Part shown: positions 153 through 2,109 of the stretch, in pieces
Position numbering within the stretch: position 1 is the stretch's first letter
Layout: each line of letters begins with the position of its first letter
From: Gammaproteobacteria bacterium
GTDB lineage: Bacteria; Pseudomonadota; Gammaproteobacteria; GCA-2400775
Assembly (NCBI GenBank): GCA_013151045.1
Contig: JAADIY010000049.1
Coordinates: forward strand, 1-37,769
Direction of reading: 5' to 3'
Length of the DNA stretch: 37,769 nucleotides
Notes under the pieces: model-generated
What the model was told of the DNA's origin: nothing
Database searches by the model: none
The model's input: only the letters and a program-made list of their open reading frames with translations
Position numbers and translations under genes: made by a program

Positions 153-1307
153 TCAGTCTTTCAAAGACCAAGTTTCATTATTTTTGGGCTTTATAATTTT
201 AGTTCTCCGCCTTGATACATCAGCATCAAGATTGACAACTAAATTTTCCTTGATTAACTCTTTCATCGCCATCTGAAAATCTTTAGGATACAAATCCGTT
301 TCTTCCAGAAAATCTGCCCATATTTCAGCATCTATCAATATAGGTGATGACGATAAACGCTTCAAAAGATACTCCTTCGCAAAAGGCCTGTCGTCAGCTA
401 TAAAACTATCTCCTACTCTAGATTCAACCCCAAATAAATCCTCCATCGGTGATTGTCCAATCTGCTGTCTCAATTTATTTTCATTTTGCACTATCCTTTG
501 GGTTATATTCATTTTTTCAGCTTCGGTTTTAAATACATCTAAACCGGTACTATGACGAGTGAGATAAACTAGGTAATAGTGAACCCTGTCCTTCCCACGT
601 TTCTCTATAGGAACATATGCAGTCCTACCACCATAATGGTTCTTCAAGTTTTTTCTATACAGCCCCAGCAAAATAGACTGTCTTTCGTAAGGCTCTTCAT
701 CAGTAAAATTAGGCACCTCACCAAACAAATCAATCATATCGCCAGCATGCTTTTCTAGAGAAATAAATCGATTTATAAAATCGTACATTAAGTTAATTAG
801 AAATTCAGAATTTTCAAGAGCAAGCAAATCACCTAATGCTCGAATACCTACTACGTTCTTCCATCCAGTAGGGTCAACAAAAAAGAAACTAAAATTAGAC
901 CCACACCAAGAGATGATGTCAGATGTCTTTTCTGAAAAATCACCGTTTATTGATTCTGCAACGATATTTGGATATGGGTTTTCCGATAAAAAATTCTGTA
1001 ATTTTTTATATGCGACAGGGTCTTTTTCTACATATAAGGCTCTGAAAGTCACCTTCCGACCAAATTGTTTCTCCAGCCCTTCCTGGCATTTAGCCATCTG
1101 CTCCAGGGAAATGCCTATGGATGTATCACTAAGCCTAGTATCGCTTTCTTGCCATGGCCCAGAAAAACAATCCACATAATTGAATACTTGCTGTCTACTC
1201 TGACCCACAATCATAAAAAGCCTTTGTAGGTAAGTTCTTAAAATTGTGTGTTTTACATAGGCTTGCTCTTTACCTATGTAATTAGATGGTATCAAGTTTT
1301 CGTTCAT
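153..1307 (-). CDS. tcmP: Three-Cys-motif partner protein TcmP
   Basis: 384 residues. The layout matches the TcmP family, named for its regular pairing with a three-cysteine Gp37/Gp68-type (DUF5131) protein. The N-terminal half reads like a Rossmann methyltransferase: YVDCFSGPW at 44-52 sits where family members have F-DxFAGPG, an acidic VEKD follows at 93-96, NGDF at 121-124 and FVDPTGW at 143-149. The family-typical INLMYDFINRF (171-181) and YYLVYLTRH (about 247-255) follow. The last 70 residues look like a winged helix. The last glycine of the usual FAGPG is replaced by tryptophan. The ATG is preceded by AGGGAAGG, and the gene starts 29 bp after its partner's stop, so the two form an operon. 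Biochemical activity is not established; methyl transfer or nucleic-acid modification is inference. The segment is visibly more AT-rich than the core genes, which suggests acquisition. Confidence 0.85.
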   Translation of the reverse strand: MNENLIPSNYIGKEQAYVKHTILRTYLQRLFMIVGQSRQQVFNYVDCFSGPWQESDTRLSDTSIGISLEQMAKCQEGLEKQFGRKVTFRALYVEKDPVAYKKLQNFLSENPYPNIVAESINGDFSEKTSDIISWCGSNFSFFFVDPTGWKNVVGIRALGDLLALENSEFLINLMYDFINRFISLEKHAGDMIDLFGEVPNFTDEEPYERQSILLGLYRKNLKNHYGGRTAYVPIEKRGKDRVHYYLVYLTRHSTGLDVFKTEAEKMNITQRIVQNENKLRQQIGQSPMEDLFGVESRVGDSFIADDRPFAKEYLLKRLSSSPILIDAEIWADFLEETDLYPKDFQMAMKELIKENLVVNLDADVSRRRTKIIKPKNNETWSLKD

Positions 1308-1336
1308 TCAACCTTCCCTATTAAATGACATTTAAA

Positions 1337-2068
1337 TTACATAGCTGCTGCCGGCATCATATCCCAGGTTTTTCCTTGTAAACTTCTTCCATTCCTTTTT
1401 TTATCTCGCTTCCTTCCATCTTCACCCCATGCACCCCATTGTTTGAAAAAGAAATCAATGCCTGCTCTATCACACTGATCTCTTACATCAACAGCCCATT
1501 CCGTTTTCATAGGCCTGGCACCGTATCCAGATTCACCACCGACGATAACCCAATGAATCTTTGCTAACGGTATTCTGCCTAAATTTTCCAATAATGGCTC
1601 TATAGATAAAAATCTGGTTTTTGATCTTATTTTTTGTAAATCATAAATTCTAGGCTTACCATATTTTTTATCTTCCACAGACACTCCTAACCAAGCATTA
1701 TCTGGAACAACACGTGATTCAAAATATTCACGCATTATTTCACTTCGTTTTGTGAGAATTTGATAGGTATGCCATGGTGTTTTTCGAATCACATCCATTA
1801 CTTGATCTATAAACGTAAATGGCACACTTTCTTGAAATAAGTCACTCATAGAGTTAACAAAATACATTGTTGGCTTTTTTCGACGTATAGGTTGTTCTAA
1901 TCGAGAAGGTATTAGGCTTAAATTAAATCCATTTTCATAACCTGGCACATCCATAGCTTGCAACCGCTTTGACATAGTCTCGGCATAACAATGTTTACAC
2001 CCAGGCGATACTTTAGTGCAACCAGTTACAGGATTCCAAGTTTTCTCGGTCCACTCAATTTTACTCAC
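1337..2068 (-). CDS. DUF5131 / phage Gp37-Gp68-type three-cysteine protein
   Basis: 243 residues from a GTG start at 2068, chosen because TTGGAG stands 7 nt upstream and the conserved family N-terminus (x-S-K-I-E-W-T) begins there. An ATG at 2143 would add 25 unconserved residues. Motif WNPVTGC followed by PGCKHCYAE gives Cys17, Cys24 and Cys27 (CX6CX2C), reminiscent of the iron-sulfur loop of radical-SAM enzymes, especially the spore photoproduct lyase type. Other family marks are LSIEPLLE, WVIVGGESG and FFKQWGAWGEDG near the C-terminus. Homologues occur in mycobacteriophages and bacterial islands, often beside TcmP, as here. Family assignment is strong. Radical-SAM chemistry is inference from the cysteines, because the spacing is not the classical CX3CX2C. 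Confidence 0.85.
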   Translation of the reverse strand: MSKIEWTEKTWNPVTGCTKVSPGCKHCYAETMSKRLQAMDVPGYENGFNLSLIPSRLEQPIRRKKPTMYFVNSMSDLFQESVPFTFIDQVMDVIRKTPWHTYQILTKRSEIMREYFESRVVPDNAWLGVSVEDKKYGKPRIYDLQKIRSKTRFLSIEPLLENLGRIPLAKIHWVIVGGESGYGARPMKTEWAVDVRDQCDRAGIDFFFKQWGAWGEDGRKRDKKRNGRSLQGKTWDMMPAAAM

Positions 2069-2089
2069 AATCAACTCCAAGAAACTTAA

Positions 2090-2109
2090 ATATGTATATT
2101 CATACAGTA
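2090..2109 (-). promoter_or_regulatory. Candidate LexA (SOS) box upstream of the DUF5131-tcmP operon
   Basis: Minus-strand sequence TACTGTATGAATATACATAT matches 15 of 20 positions of the gammaproteobacterial LexA consensus TACTGTATATATATACAGTA. The CTG arm is perfect; the other arm has CAT instead of CAG. It lies about 22-41 nt upstream of the GTG start, where a promoter would be. One arm is imperfect and the region is AT-rich, so chance is possible. Confidence 0.4.

Follow-up and report, generated by a model that had tools for sequence, protein, structure and literature searches.

A LexA-type operator before a mobile DUF5131-TcmP gene pair points to a candidate DNA-damage-inducible pair of nucleic-acid enzymes

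What process is served by the neighboring genes for a DUF5131 protein and a TcmP protein, found near one end of a gammaproteobacterial contig? The window discussed here is the whole 37,769-nucleotide stretch of contig JAADIY010000049.1, and its initial annotation described the two genes as an uncharacterized system in which a radical-SAM-like enzyme and a methyltransferase-like partner may modify a nucleic acid, perhaps in anti-phage defence or phage counter-defence. No function of DUF5131 was found in the papers searched, and no paper testing DUF5131 or TcmP was found in the open-access literature searched. Family membership is clear: DUF5131 scores 360 bits against PF07505 (gathering cut-off 28.9), TcmP, adjoining DUF5131, scores 111.4 bits against TIGR04474 (cut-off 53), and the winged helix of TcmP scores 29.2 bits against PF22560 (cut-off 27). 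By these sequence matches the pair is the PADLOC candidate PDC-M30 (TIGR04474 plus PF07505), a family defined by the same two adjacent genes, and the two genes match the models M30A (E=4e-12) and M30B (E=9e-110), an assignment judged on model matches and not on PADLOC's own thresholds. PDC-M30 is a defence candidate by prediction, and the papers found mention no SOS control of it. DUF5131 also gives a significant profile match (E=2e-24) to radical SAM mobile pair protein A (TIGR04471), likewise a mobile pair by name, but membership of that family was rejected at 86 bits against a cut-off of 355 bits. The features of the locus are as follows.

153..1307, minus strand: TcmP (TIGR04474) gene, 384 aa; predicted RlmJ-like methyltransferase fold and C-terminal winged helix
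219..380, minus strand: C-terminal GMT-like winged helix (PF22560) of TcmP, residues 310-363
525..1268, minus strand: methyltransferase-like domain of TcmP, with K19-H20, D46-x-F-x-G50, S63, E94 and D145-P146
1312..1318, minus strand: Shine-Dalgarno-like sequence GGGAAGG of TcmP
1337..2068, minus strand: DUF5131 (PF07505) gene, 243 aa, GTG start; predicted radical-SAM-type fold like that of spore photoproduct lyase (SPL)
1988..2020, minus strand: CX6CX2C motif of DUF5131 (C17, C24, C27; residues 17-27), putative [4Fe-4S] ligands
2075..2078, minus strand: Shine-Dalgarno sequence GGAG of DUF5131, 6 nt before the GTG
2092..2107, minus strand: LexA/SOS box CTGTATGAATATACAT just before the DUF5131 start; 15/16 positions agree with this genome's lexA operator, CTGTATAAATATACAT

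Both reading frames are intact on the minus strand and are separated by a gap of 29 bp (1308-1336). The GTG start at 2068 agrees with the end coordinate given initially; a longer mechanical reading frame extending to 2143 is unnecessary. The GC content of the pair is 37.0% versus 44.4% in the remaining window. The elements that the initial annotation had read from the sequence, namely two adjacent same-strand genes, a CX6CX2C cluster in one, methyltransferase-like motifs and a winged helix in the other, and AT-rich local sequence, were thus all borne out.

What the initial annotation missed is a linkage to LexA/SOS, which is the strongest signal found and points first to DNA damage. In a nearest-neighbor survey of homologous loci, Peptidase_S24 was the most frequent family, and LexA sites were tested for this reason. 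Upstream of DUF5131, the sequence TACTGTATGAATATACATAT (2090-2109) scored 17.1 with a matrix of LexA sites of the E. coli type; it is the top site of the window, the next scoring 11.7, and none of 2000 shuffles reached the same score. Comparison within the genome, a test which rests on this one site, showed 15 of 16 bases of the box to be identical to the lexA operator. The genome's own lexA has the promoter sites CTGTATAAATATACAT and CTGTATTTTTATACAT; a neighboring integrase gene carries CTGTATAGTTATACAT. Over the 1.95 Mb of the genome, MTGTATNNNNATACAK is matched at exactly four places, the two lexA sites, the integrase and the DUF5131 promoter, compared with 0.6 expected per genome under a first-order model (3e-5 per 100 bp) and one occurrence of a reversed-pattern control. 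The canonical CTGTN8ACAG has 13 sites in the genome versus 29 in the control, with lexA not among them, and so a genome-specific box was used. The placement of the box, which ends about 23-24 bp short of the DUF5131 start codon, would suit repression, and a scan of the promoter region found no sigma-70 consensus. Given the operator match, the pair probably belongs to the LexA regulon of its own genome, where it would be repressed by LexA and induced on its removal. Directly upstream of lexA in this genome (contig C7, locus L173, about 150-1140) is a tyrosine recombinase gene resembling integron integrases, with a LexA box in its promoter and a TAG in frame; lexA is followed by an imuA-like gene.

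Links to the SOS response recur among homologous loci. A box scoring at least 13.5 lies upstream of 14 of 71 cluster leader genes versus 8 of 496 other leader genes at the same loci (Fisher p=1e-8), some of the control matches being divergent genes that share the same upstream region. LexA- or UmuD-like S24 genes lie no more than two genes away at 16/85 loci versus 1/381 control genes (p=6e-12). Both p-values are inexact, since the loci are related and one genome was counted twice (L012 and L169, apparently one contig). The 16 S24-linked loci do not overlap with the 14 box-bearing ones, and a strong E. coli-type box was found upstream of none of them but the umuDC locus L134. One locus reads SRAP (on the opposite strand), umuD, umuC, S24, DUF5131, TcmP, TcmP, and a Comamonas plasmid carries S24, DUF5131 and TcmP in line. 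The alphaproteobacterial operator GTTCN7GTTC, unrelated to the E. coli-type box, lies upstream of 3 of 31 leaders versus 1 of 157 in the phylum sample and plasmid loci. Most homologous loci have neither a LexA-type box nor an S24 neighbor. Among plasmid copies, which include those of Pseudomonas, Methylobacter and Rhizobiaceae, no convincing E. coli-type box was found at the operon in six from gamma- and betaproteobacteria, and no GTTC box in six from alphaproteobacteria. SOS control is therefore recurrent and not universal.

The predicted structures indicate what such an operon may encode. Alignments for AlphaFold2 were built from window and locus proteins, and the DUF5131 model reached a pLDDT of 94.2. 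In a Foldseek search of the PDB its six top matches were all SPL, a repair enzyme for ultraviolet damage in DNA, followed by lipoyl synthase and, lower, viperin; TM-scores were about 0.5. DUF5131 is accordingly predicted to form a radical SAM-type partial TIM barrel nearest to that of SPL, which upholds at the level of fold the radical-SAM-like character proposed initially. A sequence search of the PDB found no DUF5131 relative, and membership of the SPL family by sequence was rejected, profile comparison with TIGR03886-type and related proteins giving an hhalign probability of 0.4%. The profile does not reach SPL, so the claim is that DUF5131 works like SPL and not that it is one. The two also differ in their cysteines: the canonical CX3CX2C motif is present in 0 of 109 DUF5131 relatives, and CX6CX2C takes its place in 108, each of C17, C24 and C27 being conserved in 108/109. 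These residues are putative ligands of a [4Fe-4S] cluster, and the enzyme may use SAM chemistry. A further cysteine, C199, is conserved in 98 of 109 relatives and could serve as a hydrogen donor. SplB-like radical SAM repair genes are members of the SOS network in several bacteria (PMC8565304, PMC3765255), a second likeness to set beside the structural one. Its methyltransferase-like partner sets DUF5131 apart.

The TcmP model (pLDDT 91.5) matched class I methyltransferases in Foldseek, including the RNA enzymes Trm1, RsmD and MnmM, and a sequence search of the PDB gave weak matches only. The closest characterized relative is RlmJ, the 23S rRNA m6A2030 methyltransferase, whose profile aligns to that of TcmP with 93% probability (E=3e-7). 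Motifs are collinear with those of RlmJ and Dam-type adenine methylases, namely the K-H of motif X, D-x-x-x-G, a serine, the motif II acid and the motif IV aspartate. RlmJ cannot transfer the methyl group without K18 and D164 (PMC3814359). Their aligned counterparts K19 and D145 do not vary among 85 TcmPs, all of which have Asp or Glu as the motif II acid. In contrast to RlmJ and the Dam-type enzymes, TcmP has a winged helix, a DUF5131 partner, and no DPPY in motif IV, which reads DPTG here and DPYG in most relatives. This replacement makes N6-adenine methylation by the standard mechanism uncertain. TcmP is thus best described as a protein with a predicted RlmJ-like methyltransferase fold and SAM-site motifs that may have methyltransferase activity, in keeping with the initial annotation.

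The two proteins appear to work together. Of 249 genomes sampled from the phylum, 31 carry DUF5131 and 17 carry TcmP above the cut-off, each of these 17 having an adjacent DUF5131 (16 of 16 when the genome studied here is excluded; Fisher p=2e-17). With DUF5131 as bait, an adjacent TcmP was found at 70 of 80 genome loci, arranged as a DUF5131-TcmP tandem at 28, a TcmP-DUF5131 tandem at 23 and convergently at 19. Adjacency retained through repeated rearrangement argues for a joint function, and the wide co-occurrence noted initially extends well beyond this lineage. Seven loci (L114, L123, L131, L134, L137, L146 and L242) have two TcmPs around a single DUF5131, often one short (about 290 aa) and one long (about 420 aa), which suggests a three-subunit version of the pair. 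The pair is found on plasmids, on phages and on ICE-like, Tn7- and Tn3-like elements, and DUF5131 is present on hundreds of plasmids and phages. On viral contigs DUF5131 lacks a detected TcmP in 46 of 60 cases, and TcmP as a query gave no relatives in viral contigs (single-query search) or in phages (tblastn), where DUF5131 gave many. Some genomes, too, have DUF5131 with no detected TcmP, and its neighbors there are sometimes Dam- or Dcm-type methylases or SprT-like proteins. The latter, relatives of DNA-protein-crosslink proteases, adjoin DUF5131 at L108, L109, L127, L158 and L161, four of the five being without TcmP. In Gordonia phage Jablanski (L172), DUF5131 and an annotated "methyltransferase" are convergent with overlapping ends in the integrase region, the same layout as many bacterial DUF5131-TcmP pairs.

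The reading that we favor, with a probability of roughly 0.45 and ahead of a plain anti-phage system, is a mobile, SOS-induced, LexA-repressed operon whose enzymes process nucleic acid that is damaged or modified. The SPL-like fold, the lexA-matching box and the translesion-polymerase-type neighbors in a relative all favor it. DUF5131 and TcmP would form one operon on a mobile accessory module, held off by LexA at the observed box; DNA damage would activate RecA, LexA would be cleaved and the operon would be switched on. DUF5131 would be the radical-SAM-type enzyme, its predicted SPL-like partial barrel bearing a [4Fe-4S] site of three cysteines, and TcmP may bind the nucleic acid, where it would present or mark an amino-base, with adenine the likeliest. 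The most likely joint role of the two is to reverse or process, in DNA, a lesion or a modified base, as SOS-regulated SplB repair enzymes do. We infer the chemistry, the substrate and the choice of DNA over RNA; the target might be RNA instead. Prophage, integron and toxin genes are also under SOS control, and SOS control alone is therefore no proof of repair. A bolder form of this reading, which we consider doubtful, is that the pair represents a new type of direct-reversal DNA repair, induced by SOS and carried on mobile elements. In it the radical-SAM enzyme would undo or rewrite a lesion or a modified base, and its adenine-methyltransferase-like partner would guide it by recognizing or flipping the base.

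The pair may instead be an anti-phage system in which DNA damage serves as the infection alarm and the LexA-controlled enzymes modify or poison phage nucleic acid, a possibility that we rate clearly below the favored reading. The matches of both proteins to the PDC-M30A/B models speak for it, as does carriage on mobile elements; some copies lie beside hsdS, GIY-YIG or AbiE-like genes or an EcoRI-type methylase and DUF262, and DNA damage is known to control immune operons through other regulators (PMC13373217). The role in defence or counter-defence proposed initially nevertheless gained no specific support, as the neighbor survey gave scattered defence matches with none dominant, so that a dominant defence neighborhood was rejected and linkage to SOS/LexA is the stronger. 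Phages and prophages themselves carry DUF5131, and the papers searched held no functional test of PDC-M30, which appears there as a predicted listing. Either outcome matters, be it a new mobile repair chemistry or an SOS-triggered immune system; with the LexA box, the recurrent LexA/UmuD links and the SPL-like fold, "unknown, perhaps defence" gives way to a testable proposal, a DNA-damage-induced pair of nucleic-acid enzymes.

Two further readings concern the substrate. It seems unlikely that the two proteins make a modified base in mobile-element DNA, guarding that DNA against restriction during transfer or infection, with TcmP as an amino-base methyltransferase and DUF5131 acting on the base or methyl group by radical chemistry. 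Such a role would suit the kinship of TcmP with an m6A methyltransferase, the Dam- or Dcm-type DNA methylases that sometimes adjoin TcmP-less DUF5131 (L161, L163) and the Dcm-like gene that heads the operon in L104, but the SPL-like fold and SOS linkage suggest a response and not constitutive marking, and the altered motif IV of TcmP counts against it as well. Less probable still is modification or repair of rRNA or tRNA under stress, by analogy with RlmJ. That TcmP is nearest by profile to an rRNA enzyme and matches RNA methyltransferases in structure agrees with this idea, whereas its C-terminal winged helix, the DNA-repair neighbors (umuDC, SRAP and S24, with SprT-like proteins at some copies) and carriage on DNA mobile elements do not.

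The position of the pair fits an accessory module. Neither gene was found in four same-genus genomes; two of these (G001 and G004) align with the window at slyD-plsC-gmhB at about 74-75% identity and carry other genes beyond slyD, which makes the slyD-distal side a variable site. The accessory insertion beside slyD suggested initially is supported by this comparison with close relatives; the pair is not core in them, and its predicted folds do carry candidate metal and SAM sites. The window starts at the contig end, on the TcmP side of the pair, leaving the left end of the element out of sight. One of the two aligned same-genus genomes encodes a HipA-like protein (L085, 5147-6472) a few genes past slyD, on this side of its variable site. 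Between the pair and slyD lies a dispersed repeat of roughly 200-240 bp (2199-2437), with about 16 more partial copies across the genome that are 70-91% identical. A short inverted repeat, ATTCCCGCCTGCGCGGGAAT, is present at 2463-2488; it resembles the dRS3-type repeats of Neisseria, and one more near-copy was found.
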